DNA of 64,000 bases from NCBI RefSeq assembly GCF_003697345.1, contig NZ_RFLY01000008.1, positions 1-64,000 on the forward strand, given 5' to 3'. The notes below the pieces were generated by a model. The model was not told the DNA's origin and made no database searches. It was given only the letters and a program-made list of their open reading frames with translations. Each line of letters opens with the position of its first letter. The first letter of the stretch is position 1. The position numbers and the translations under genes are program-made. Origin of the DNA: Solilutibacter pythonis (GTDB lineage: Bacteria > Pseudomonadota > Gammaproteobacteria > Xanthomonadales > Xanthomonadaceae). Shown in pieces: positions 49,248 to 52,887 of the stretch.

Positions 49248-49958
49248 ATGCCCAACGAACACGACCACATCGTCAAGAGTTACGACGAAGAGCAGCAGCG
49301 ACTCGGCCACGAGATCCAGCGCATGGGCGCGATGGCGGTGGCGCAGCTCGAAGCCGCGCTCGACGTCATCGACCGCCGCGACGACAGCGCCGCCGAACGC
49401 ATCATCGCCAACGACGACGCCATCGATGCGCTGGAACACGAAGTCAGCCAGGACGTGATGAAACTCGCCCTGCGCGGCCCGATGGCCACCGACCTGCGCA
49501 TCATCCTGGTGGCCTTGCGCATCTCCTCGGATATCGAGCGCGTCGGCGACTACGCCGCCAACATGGCCAAGCGCTCGCTGGCACTGAACACCACCCCGGC
49601 ACTGCCGGTCACCGGCGGCCTGCACTCGCTCGGCCGGCTGGCCGCACAGCAGATGCGCGATGTCCTGCGCGCCTATCGCGATCTTGATGCGAACGCCGCC
49701 CAGACGGTGCGCGAGCACGACGCCGAGCTCGATCTCCAATACACCGCGCTGTTCCGCGAGTTGCTGACCTACATGATGGAAGACCCACGCAATATCACGC
49801 CCTGCACCCACCTGCTGTTCATGGCCAAGAACCTGGAGCGCATCGGCGACCACGCCACCAATATCGCCGAGAACATCTGGTTCCTTGCCCACGGCGACCA
49901 GCACCCGCTGCCGCCACGCGAGAAACGCGACGACAGCAGCGTGATCGCCAAGGTTTGA
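49248..49958 (+). CDS. phoU: Phosphate signalling regulator PhoU
   Basis: A 236-residue protein made of two three-helix PhoU repeats, each with the E/DxxxD metal-binding pattern (DIERVGDYAANMAK and NLERIGDHATNIAE). It transmits the Pst transporter state to the PhoR kinase to shut off the Pho regulon. Last gene of the pst operon, followed by a hairpin terminator. Confidence 0.95.
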   Translation: MPNEHDHIVKSYDEEQQRLGHEIQRMGAMAVAQLEAALDVIDRRDDSAAERIIANDDAIDALEHEVSQDVMKLALRGPMATDLRIILVALRISSDIERVGDYAANMAKRSLALNTTPALPVTGGLHSLGRLAAQQMRDVLRAYRDLDANAAQTVREHDAELDLQYTALFRELLTYMMEDPRNITPCTHLLFMAKNLERIGDHATNIAENIWFLAHGDQHPLPPREKRDDSSVIAKV

Positions 49959-49971
49959 ATTCCGCCTTCGA

Positions 49972-49990
49972 GGCCCGCTTCCGGCGGGCC
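49972..49990 (+). terminator. Hairpin after phoU
   Basis: GGCCCGC-TTCCG-GCGGGCC, a 7-bp GC stem with a 5-nt loop, 14 bp after the phoU stop. There is little U run, so termination may be partial. Confidence 0.6.
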
Positions 49991-50079
49991 GAACGCTTTC
50001 TGGCGGAGCACTAACGCTTTCTTCAACCCTTGCCAGCCCCTTGGCGCTACCATCGGTCTCCCCCAAAGGAGATGCTCCG

Positions 50080-50493
50080 ATGAAGTCTCGCAACAAGACC
50101 GCGCTCGCCCTCGGCACACTCGCCGGCTCGCTGGCGCTTTCCGGTGGCGCTTTCGCCATCCAGCCGCTCGAATCCGCCTACATGGGCGATACACCGCCCG
50201 CCCGCCAGGCCGAAGGCAAGTGCGGCTTCAAGCGGATGGATGCCAATGGCGACGGCAAGGTCTCACGTGAAGAATTCGCCGCCGCCCACGATGGCAAGGA
50301 CGACCAGTTCGCAAGCCACGACCTCGATGGCGATGGCAACATCACCCAGGCCGAAATGGACCAATACCGCGCCGACAAGAAGAAGGCTGCCGAAGGCAAG
50401 TGCGGCGAGGGCAAGTGCGGTGCCCAATCGGACGAAGGCAAAAACGACAGCGAAGGCAAATGCGGCGCCGGCAAGTGCGGTGGCAGTCTTTGA
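50080..50493 (+). CDS. Secreted EGKCG-motif RiPP precursor with two EF-hands (HvfA/bufferin-like)
   Basis: A 137-residue precursor. It has a Sec signal peptide (about 1-26, ending AFA); EGKCG near residue 45; two consecutive EF-hand loops, DANGDGKVSREE and DLDGDGNITQAE; and a Cys-rich tail with EGKCGEGKCG, EGKCG and a final AGKCG. Five Cys are present, each inside a GKCG context. In HvfA of Haemophilus, EGKCG Cys residues are converted to oxazolone/thioamide pairs that bind Cu(I), and related bufferins handle copper. AAAGGAG precedes the ATG. Placed 32 bp before the DUF692 gene. The EF-hand part suggests an added Ca2+-responsive or structural module; this is inference. Confidence 0.88.
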   Translation: MKSRNKTALALGTLAGSLALSGGAFAIQPLESAYMGDTPPARQAEGKCGFKRMDANGDGKVSREEFAAAHDGKDDQFASHDLDGDGNITQAEMDQYRADKKKAAEGKCGEGKCGAQSDEGKNDSEGKCGAGKCGGSL

Positions 50494-50524
50494 CCGGATC
50501 GGTTGACAACGGGCGCGCCGGTCG

Positions 50525-51352
50525 ATGACCGGCGCGCTTGCCGATGCCACTGTCGGCCTTGGCTTGCGCCGTGGCCTGCTGAGGGCGATCGAAACCGCGC
50601 CGGCGGGCGATTTCGATTTCCTCGAATGCGCGCCGGAGAACTGGATCGGCGTCGGCGGCGCGTTGGGCGCGCGCTTCGACGCCCTCGCCGCGCGCCATCC
50701 CATCACCCTGCACGGGCTGTCGCTCTCGCTAGGCGGCGCAATGCCCCTGGATGACGACCTGATCGATGCCATCGGCGGTTTCATGCAACGCCACGACATC
50801 CATCACTACAGTGAACACCTGAGCTACAGCGCCGACGACGGCCACCTCTATGATCTACTTCCACTAGCGTTCGACGAAACCAGCACACACCACGTCGCTG
50901 CCCGCATCGATCGCGTGCAACAACGCCTCGGCCGGCGCATTGCCATCGAGAACATCAGCTATTACGCCGCGCCCTGGCAACGCATGCCGGAAGCCGACTT
51001 CATCAATGCCGTGCTCGACGCCGCCGACTGCCAGCTATTGCTCGACGTCAACAACATCTACGTCAATGCCACCAACCACGGCTATGACGCGCGCGCATTC
51101 CTCGCCGCCATGCCGTCCGCGCGCATCGCCGGCTATCACATCGCCGGCCATCACGACGAAAGCGACGACCTCAAGATCGACACCCACGGCACCGCGGTCA
51201 AGGAAGATGTCTGGTCGCTGCTGGCACAAGCCTACCGATTACATGGCACCCACCCCACCCTGCTGGAACGCGACTTCAACTACCCGCCCTATGCCGAGTT
51301 GCGAAGCGAGCTGGCACGCATTCGCACGCTGCAAGCCGAGGCGCGCCCATGA
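50525..51352 (+). CDS. DUF692 multinuclear iron oxidase (MNIO), HvfB/BufB-like
   Basis: A 275-residue TIM-barrel enzyme. Candidate iron ligands are the conserved His/Glu/Asp/Asn residues in [47 protein letters not shown] and [12 protein letters not shown] enzymes use two or three iron ions and O2 to rework Cys residues of a precursor peptide (oxazolone/thioamide in HvfA). The adjacent EGKCG precursor is the obvious substrate. The stop overlaps the next gene's start (ATGA), so the enzyme and its partner are coupled. Confidence 0.93.
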
Positions 51353-52098
51353 GTCCCGATGACGCCCTCAAGGCCCGGCAATTCGCTTTCGCCGCCCACC
51401 TGCGCGATGCCGGGCACCCGCCACCGCCCGGCATCGGCGAGCGCCGGCTGGCGGTCTATCGCACCCTGTTCTTCAACACCATCGAAAACCTGCTGGCCGC
51501 GAATTTTCCGGTGATCCGGCGCACGCTGGGCGCGCACGGCTGGTCATCGCTCGTGTGCGAATTCCATCGCCATCACCGCTGCCAAACGCCCCTGTTCACC
51601 GAAATAGCACAAGAATTCATCGGCTGGCTCGCCGAACACGAATCCGAACACGCACCCTGGCTGCCCGAACTGGCGCATTACGAATGGATGGAACTGCGCG
51701 CCGAGATCGACGACACTCCAGCGCCGCCGCACAACGCCGAGGGCGATCCGCTGAGCGGCATTCCCGTGCTGTCCCCGCAAGCCTGGCCGCTGGCCTACGC
51801 CTGGCCGGTCGATCGCATTGGCCCCGGCTTCGTGCCCGAAACACGCCCGGATACCCCAACCCTGCTGCTGGTGCGTCGCGACCCGACGATGAAGCCGCAC
51901 TTCGCCGCGCTCTCCCCACTGGCATTCAGACTGTTGCAGATCATCTCGACGAATGACGCTGCCGATGGCGCGACACTGCTGCAAGCGCTCGCCACCGAAG
52001 CCGGCCTGCCAGACGACACCATCTTCCTTGCCGAAGCACGCACCATGCTGCAACGCCTGCGCGATGAAGGCACGCTGATCGGCACCCGGCCCCCCTGA
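51349..52098 (+). CDS. DUF2063 partner protein (HvfC/BufC-like)
   Basis: A 249-residue protein with the DUF2063 N-terminal domain ([20 protein letters not shown], through about 95) and a C-terminal winged-helix-like part. In known pairs it forms a complex with the MNIO enzyme and helps recruit the precursor. It is directly coupled to the DUF692 gene. No DoxX/HvfD gene follows; 145 bp without features separate it from the next gene. Confidence 0.9.
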
Positions 52099-52242
52099 TC
52101 CCAAGCACCCACGCAGCACGCACAAACCGCCAAGAAAAACCCCGCCTCGACACCTGTACGGGCCACCTGGAAAACCATCAGCCGATCCCTGTCCGGCCCA
52201 TACCCGTTCACGCCTCCCACGGGCAACGATTAAACTGCGCGC

Positions 52243-52887
52243 ATGTCCGACCCCACCTCGCCCAGCACCCTGCGGATTTCGATGGCCGGCCGCTTCCGCG
52301 GCTTTCTGCCAGTGGTGGTGGATGTCGAAACCGGCGGCTTCGACTGGAACCAGCATGCGCTGCTGGAAATCGCCGCCATACCGCTGGACCTCGACGAAAA
52401 CGGCCAACTGGCCCTAGGCGAGACCGCCTGCGCTCATCTCGACCCCGCGCCCGGCACCAAGATCGACCCGAAATCGCTGGAAATCACCGGCATCCAGCTC
52501 GACCATCCCTTCCGCCTCTCCAAACCTGAGAAGGAAGCGCTCGATCATGTTTTCGCCAAGGTGCGCTCGGCGGTGAAGAAACACCACTGCCAACGCGCCA
52601 TCCTGGTCGGCCATAACGCCCATTTCGATCTCAACTTCCTCAACGCCGCCGTGGCCAGGACCCGGCACAAGCGCAATCCGTTTCATCCCTTCAGCGTGTT
52701 CGACACGGTGACGATGGCCGGGCTCGCCTACGGGCAGACCGTGCTGGCGCGCGCCGTGCAAGCCGCCGGCATGACCTGGAACGCCGCCGATGCGCACTCC
52801 GCCGTGTACGACGCGGAAATGACCGCCAAGCTCTTTTGCGCCATCGCCAACCAGTGGCCGCGCGTTCTGCCGCCGCCCGCGCCCTGA
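52243..52887 (+). CDS. rnt: Ribonuclease T
   Basis: A 214-residue DEDDh exonuclease: motif [11 protein letters not shown], motif [13 protein letters not shown] and motif III with [12 protein letters not shown]. RNase T trims the 3' ends of tRNA (CCA turnover) and matures 5S and 23S rRNA. Convergent with rlmB. Confidence 0.93.

Follow-up and report, generated by a model that had tools for sequence, protein, structure and literature searches.

A probable HvfA-type operon of Solilutibacter pythonis whose precursor carries an EF-hand pair between EGKCG motifs

The closest described relatives of the locus analysed here come from two lines of work. Oxazolin (HvfABC) from Haemophilus influenzae derives from a Sec-type precursor whose Cys motifs are modified by HvfB and HvfC, and its operon also holds the DoxX-like HvfX. 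The Sec peptide acts as the leader of HvfA, HvfBC favours the precursor with this peptide attached, and the modification is now assigned as 5-thiooxazole (PMC13419390). The captophorins fontiphorin and gonophorin carry EGKCG repeats that an MNIO-PME1 pair modifies, and their product is again 5-thiooxazole (PMC12668002), the structure of the HvfA and FonA modifications coming from NMR work (PMC12668002, PMC13419390) and being proposed tentatively for EGKCG relatives in PMC12538549 as well. FonBC modified a two-repeat substrate and left a one-repeat substrate unmodified, and the same authors suspected EGKCG products of stochastic copper binding and aggregation (PMC12668002). EF-hands are mentioned nowhere in the oxazolin HvfBC paper (PMC13419390) and are absent from the main text of the captophorin paper (PMC12668002), whereas an EF-hand pair is present in the precursor reported here.

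The second line of work concerns EfhP (PA4107) of Pseudomonas aeruginosa, which has an EF-hand pair and EGKCG repeats, four according to PMC11559002, and lies beside the DUF692 and DUF2063 genes PA4106 and PA4105. A predicted operon of efhP, DUF692 and DUF2063 genes has been in print since 2014 (PMC4053335) and is cited in two later papers (PMC8692599, PMC8719888). Selective Ca2+ binding at 13.7 µM and a Ca2+-dependent structure were described in 2022 (PMC9132961), and Ca2+ binding makes the protein more hydrophobic, with effects of EfhP on Ca2+-regulated traits and iron uptake (PMC9132961, PMC4053335, PMC11559002). The recombinant protein was obtained from E. coli without its signal peptide (PMC9132961) and was thus presumably unmodified. 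A survey of MNIO precursors by Antoine et al. in 2025 (PMC12452194) set apart, as a second type, EGKCG precursors that also contain two EF-hand_5 domains, and named EfhP; such signal-peptide-bearing chimaeras typically cluster with MNIO and DUF2063 genes.

The window analysed here is a stretch of 64,000 nucleotides from Solilutibacter pythonis (contig NZ_RFLY01000008.1, positions 1 to 64,000), and it contains three genes that most likely make an exported copper-binding peptide which also bears a calcium-binding EF-hand pair. The features given with coordinates below lie on the forward (+) strand. The hvfA-like precursor gene (50080..50493) encodes 137 residues in a frame that opens with an ATG at 50080, has an AGGAG-like ribosome-binding site on its 5' side and stays open to 50493. 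As read from the sequence, the product begins with a signal-peptide-like stretch ending in AFA (residues 1-26, 50080..50157), followed by a first EGKCG motif (residues 45-49, 50212..50226) four residues ahead of Ca2+ loop 1, DANGDGKVSREE (residues 54-65, 50239..50274). A 15-residue linker leads to loop 2, DLDGDGNITQAE (residues 81-92, 50320..50355), and the chain closes with a Cys arm (residues 105-137, 50392..50490) that carries EGKCGEGKCG and EGKCGAGKCG, so that one of the five GKCG cysteines lies N-terminal and four lie C-terminal of the EF pair. The gene hvfB (50525..51352), for an MNIO (DUF692) RiPP maturase, starts after 31 bases, and hvfC (51349..52098), for a DUF2063/RRE partner protein, overlaps it by 4 bases. 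No sigma-70-like promoter was found in 49900-52300. The neighbours identified in the window are phosphate transport genes, phoU (49248..49958, PF01895), an RNase_T-type exonuclease gene (52243..52887, PF00929) and a SpoU-type methylase gene; phoU upstream and the exonuclease gene downstream mark the site, phoU standing outside the system itself.

Family models place the precursor in the wider EGKCG group. It matched NCBIfam NF050137 (KCGExKCG_twice), a repeat already labelled as HvfA family, with 35 bits against a cut-off of 19.5, as well as Pfam EF-hand_5 (PF13202; whole-protein score 37.9 bits, gathering threshold 25.9, E=9.5e-10) over two stretches. The full-length HvfA equivalog NF050188 was not reached (31.7 bits against a cut-off of 95), nor was it in the five EF-hand-bearing relatives scanned, which makes the protein a member of the wider group and not an HvfA in the narrow sense. 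A chance reading frame with chance motifs was rejected on the NF050137 and EF-hand_5 scores and on the codon substitution ratios of the EF block given below. An origin as bufferin Buf1 was likewise discarded, as the precursor has no match to the DUF2282 Pfam model, the whole genome has none either (a control genome, Caulobacter vibrioides, gave one) and the MNIO scored 256 bits with MNIO_BufB, below its cut-off of 310. The XopAW effector model gave 34.3 bits against a cut-off of 120, which was read as general EF-hand similarity and rejected.

The hvfB product scored 390 bits with the HvfB model NF003818 (cut-off 360), matched PF05114 and aligned with PDB 3bww at E=1.7e-64, and the hvfC product scored 268.7 bits with the HvfC model NF050145 (cut-off 142) and matched PF09836 (DUF2063) and PF22106. 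Both enzymes thus pass equivalog cut-offs and the precursor passes the HvfA-family domain model together with EF-hand_5, which supports an operon of the HvfA (oxazolin/captophorin) kind; this assignment is probable, and the product would be a 5-thiooxazole metallophore for Cu(I) that leaves the cytoplasm by Sec and has an EF core folded by Ca2+. HvfB is the one MNIO of the genome among the matches listed (E<=1e-20). In contrast to the oxazolin operon with its HvfX, no DoxX match occurs in the genome. The first-pass annotation had read from the letters a signal-peptide precursor with EGKCG motifs and two EF-hand loops, located between a first EGKCG and a Cys-rich tail with five GKCG-type Cys sites in all, directly before a coupled MNIO and DUF2063 pair. 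The scores above, the readable loops and the 4-base overlap bear out this description and support reading the first gene as that of an EGKCG RiPP precursor, with the other two as its partners, but the oxazolone/thioamide product expected there has since been reassigned to 5-thiooxazole (PMC13419390, PMC12668002).

The same annotation had taken the EF-hand fusion to lie outside the described architecture, and in this respect it is superseded by the published Buf_EGKC|EF-hand_5 type and EfhP (PMC12452194, PMC4053335). With an EGKCG domain and two EF-hand_5 domains the precursor corresponds to that chimaera, but the EF-hands of the published type are placed at the C-terminus of a short EGKCG domain, whereas here one motif precedes the EF pair and four of the five GKCG motifs follow it, a comparison made with the text description of the type (PMC12452194). 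In the text consulted, which covered openly licensed papers without their supplementary files, no description was found of an arrangement that puts the EF-hands between EGKCG blocks. The fusion is therefore of a published kind, and the sandwich, as the arrangement with the EF pair between EGKCG motifs is called below, is a variant of it that is widespread in the family.

To describe this spread, loci were classed as sandwich, EGKCG only, EGKCG then EF, EF then EGKCG or none, with precursor motifs found by regular expressions within 1500 bases upstream and a loop requiring D at position 1 and an acidic residue at position 12; the counts consequently depend on these patterns. HvfB matches were present in at least 116 of 149 genomes of the window's family (E<=1e-20). 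The family set comprises 116 loci among the matches listed, namely 114 of HvfB type (30 + 84) and two of BufB type from the window's genus; it leaves out the match in G120, whose contig ends just upstream, and the remaining weaker BufB-type matches. It was divided into 58 sandwich, 42 EGKCG only, 12 EGKCG then EF, two EF then EGKCG and two none. In the named loci (best 80 of 150), 25 of which share an identical HvfB with a locus of the unnamed family set, the corresponding counts were 35, 30, 13, one and one, and HvfC was common to all 80. The two BufB-type loci (L197 and L198), from two other species of the window's genus, have only BufB-like MNIO matches at ~42-43% identity, and a Cys-rich bufferin-like precursor lies upstream in L198.

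HvfB was matched in 122 of 369 genomes of the window's class (E<=1e-60). Once the twelve weakest hits and one truncated at a contig end had been set aside, the 106 new loci retained gave 87 EGKCG only, ten of which were called from one motif alone and may have arisen by chance, five sandwich and 14 none. One of the five sandwiches came from the window's order and two each from two other families. In a sample of Pseudomonas, to which L065 (Pseudomonas mosselii) belongs, HvfB was matched in 25 of 59 genomes (E<=1e-70). These yielded 27 loci, including a weak second MNIO: five EGKCG then EF, two sandwich, nine EGKCG only, four of which (L306, L311, L314 and L322) were judged by eye to be chance, and 11 none. 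EGKCG repeats hence precede the EF pair in five of the seven Pseudomonas EF-hand precursors of the sample, in contrast to the window, and the other two are sandwiches; PA4107 itself was not identified among the sampled loci. No convincing EGKCG precursor stands directly upstream in 14 of the 26 HvfB-type Pseudomonas loci (11 classed as none and three judged chance; e.g. L307, L310, L312 and L315), and their substrate may lie elsewhere. When the loci classed as none and three doubtful ones were rechecked, a signal-peptide Cys-rich frame was seen in L262 and L198, and no convincing precursor was seen upstream of the others. The L262 frame adjoins HvfB and has spaced CGTFCGG/CANMC-type motifs in place of EGKCG. 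Another locus, L084, recorded as Pantoea sp. Cy-639, has an EGKCG-then-EF precursor and an HvfB that groups with Pseudomonas, possibly as a mislabelled record or through transfer.

The set used for fine structure consisted of 100 distinct precursors with two detected loops, 78 sandwiches and 22 of the EGKCG-then-EF layout, leaving out three one-loop precursors and two EF then EGKCG. Only one loop was detected in L149, L153 and L175, where the second departs from the pattern solely by G-to-A at position 6, and the L192 precursor contains one EF loop only. Exactly four residues separate loop 1 from the closest upstream Cys motif in 67 of 78 sandwiches, and seven do so in 21 of 22 EGKCG-then-EF precursors; the linker between the loops has 15 residues in 64 of the 78 and in 19 of the 22, respectively. 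At loop position 9, on which the pattern placed no constraint, all 100 first loops and 99 of the 100 second loops have S, T or D, and at position 12, where D was also allowed, both have E in 100 of 100; D1 was demanded by the pattern and is no evidence of conservation. In an alignment of 49 precursors out of 98 with references, picked for having the EF pair, residues F25, Y34, G46, C48, G49, D54, G59, S62, E65, F77, D81, D85, G86 and E92 are invariant. For the EF block, dN/dS was 0.12-0.40 between the window and six of seven sandwich relatives, the seventh being saturated, and among the 28 pairs of the eight sequences it was <0.5 in 23, saturated in three and >1 in two (1.20 and 1.26, both with L033); many high dS values, together with the saturated pairs and those above 1, make this supporting evidence only.

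An AF2 model built on the 49-precursor alignment (mean pLDDT 61.5) predicts a folded core at residues ~48-107, with means of 86-92 for the blocks within 51-100, flanked by low-confidence arms at residues 1-47 and 116-137 (pLDDT <50). The entering helix of EF-hand 1 is reduced to one turn (residues 50-53) that directly abuts EGKCG, strands 60-62 and 87-89 match those of a normal paired EF-hand, and the last helix covers residues 90-107. The 50 of 710 Foldseek matches that were listed are EF-hand proteins, mostly calmodulin, with E >=0.02 and none at E<=0.001.

The precursors with and without the EF pair share a genomic context. In the named loci (best 80 of 150), a phoU homologue was located in the fetched stretch in 31 of 35 sandwich, 28 of 30 EGKCG-only and one of 13 EGKCG-then-EF loci, most of the last being from Pseudomonas, and an RNase_T exonuclease homologue accompanied 28 of the 35 sandwich loci and all 30 EGKCG-only loci. 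The phoU linkage indicates that EF-bearing and EF-less precursors of the family occupy one chromosomal site, and the occurrence of both in related genera at that site suggests that gain or loss of the EF pair probably happened in situ. An apparent in-place swap is seen in L032, where extra EGKCG repeats replace the EF pair of its close relatives L028 and L066 while leader and tail are similar. Ten family genomes (G138, G090, G015, G038, G129, G098, G071, G045, G078 and G102) have two HvfB-type loci (e.g. L121 and L160); nine of them pair EGKCG then EF with a sandwich or EGKCG-only locus, and in G102 both are EGKCG then EF.

On a tree of 277 distinct HvfB proteins, with precursor-less loci not counted, at least 16 layout changes and at least 13 changes in EF presence are needed. 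Sandwiches of the two other families (L236/L247 and L249/L277) were placed among EF-less relatives; their EF segments, which are short, show 33-69% identity to those of the family, and they may represent independent gains or transfer of the precursor. On the 277-protein tree, 21 of 24 EGKCG-then-EF loci formed a single clade (support 92) embedded among loci of the family, whereas in a second tree of 226 tips, with the class thinned and the Pseudomonas sample added, this layout was split, 18 of 28 lying with Pseudomonas and 10 of 28 inside a 65-tip clade that holds the window. As the two trees disagree, neither an ancestral layout nor a single transfer to Pseudomonas is claimed. The window's 12-tip sandwich group has a support of only 21, and the surrounding 57-tip clade one of 95.

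By analogy with its relatives, the operon would act in several steps. HvfC would probably recognise the signal peptide, residues 1-26 probably serving also as the leader for HvfBC, and HvfB would oxidise the GKCG cysteines to 5-thiooxazoles in the cytoplasm, with a loss of ~4 Da each and of at most 20 Da for five. The modified precursor would then be exported by Sec and bind Cu(I) in the periplasm, thereby buffering copper. Cytoplasmic Ca2+ is about 0.1 µM, and with an affinity like that of EfhP the EF pair would be largely empty in the cytoplasm and filled in the periplasm. We infer that the Ca2+-free pair, probably loose as long as Ca2+ is at its cytoplasmic level, would keep the chain flexible during its modification by HvfBC and its passage through Sec. 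On meeting periplasmic Ca2+ the pair would fold into a rigid core, with one Cys motif extending from its N-terminal side and four from its C-terminal side. A dual Ca2+/Cu(I) peptide, as raised in the first-pass annotation, is accordingly plausible. The lone N-terminal EGKCG is the least certain modification site and may stay unmodified, given that FonBC left a one-repeat substrate untouched, yet it is a conserved motif that adjoins loop 1. If EGKCG products bind copper stochastically and aggregate, as suspected for the captophorins (PMC12668002), an ordered core would not be needed, and the EF-less precursors at the same site show that such systems can do without the EF pair.

A further possibility, which we regard as doubtful, is that the EF pair serves merely to space the Cys blocks or keep the peptide soluble and binds Ca2+ without a regulatory role. 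The replacement of the pair by EGKCG repeats in L032, the 13 or more changes in EF presence on the HvfB tree and the two of 28 pairs without purifying selection on the EF block are all consistent with a spacer. However, a ligand-like residue at position 9 in 199 of 200 loops, E at position 12 in 200 of 200 and an EF-block dN/dS <0.5 in 23 of 28 pairs go beyond what a spacer needs.

It is unlikely that the product is primarily a periplasmic Ca2+ sensor of the EfhP type, in which Ca2+ would alter the surface and relay a signal while the modified cysteines tune or localise the sensor. Such a function would suit the 15-residue loop linker (64/78 sandwiches and 19/22 EGKCG then EF) and the behaviour of EfhP, itself from a predicted DUF692/DUF2063 operon, with its Ca2+ binding, its gain in hydrophobicity and its influence on Ca2+-regulated traits and iron uptake. 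Against it, relatives have precursors without the EF pair at this phoU-linked site, whereas the Cys motifs and HvfBC persist, and no obvious signalling partner occurs among the neighbours identified in the window. Quite unlikely, too, is the Ca2+-gated copper site also suggested by the first-pass annotation, in which the Ca2+-bound EF pair would join the adjacent EGKCG to the C-terminal Cys arm; were this true, Cu(I) binding that spans the two arms would be confined to the high Ca2+ outside the cytoplasm.

Binding of another metal by the EF pair, such as a lanthanide as in lanmodulin, is highly improbable, for the matches to the lanmodulin model are weak (E=0.0085 for the window precursor and, for four of the five relatives scanned, values as low as 1.3e-4), their scores of 16-22 bits, 16.2 for the window precursor, fall far under the cut-off of 135, and the proline typical of position 2 in lanmodulin loops is absent from those of the window. 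The Ca2+ selectivity of EfhP (PMC9132961) argues in the same direction.

The HvfA-type operon with a Ca2+-binding core, as the preferred reading, joins two literatures that have hardly met, that of EfhP as a Ca2+ sensor, studied recombinantly without its maturation enzymes, and that of copper peptides made by MNIOs. The discovery value of the system is moderate to low, and it is higher as a test case: Lysobacteraceae and their relatives have EF-bearing and EF-less forms of one operon at a single chromosomal site, which offers a natural comparison for the effect of Ca2+ on a copper-binding RiPP.
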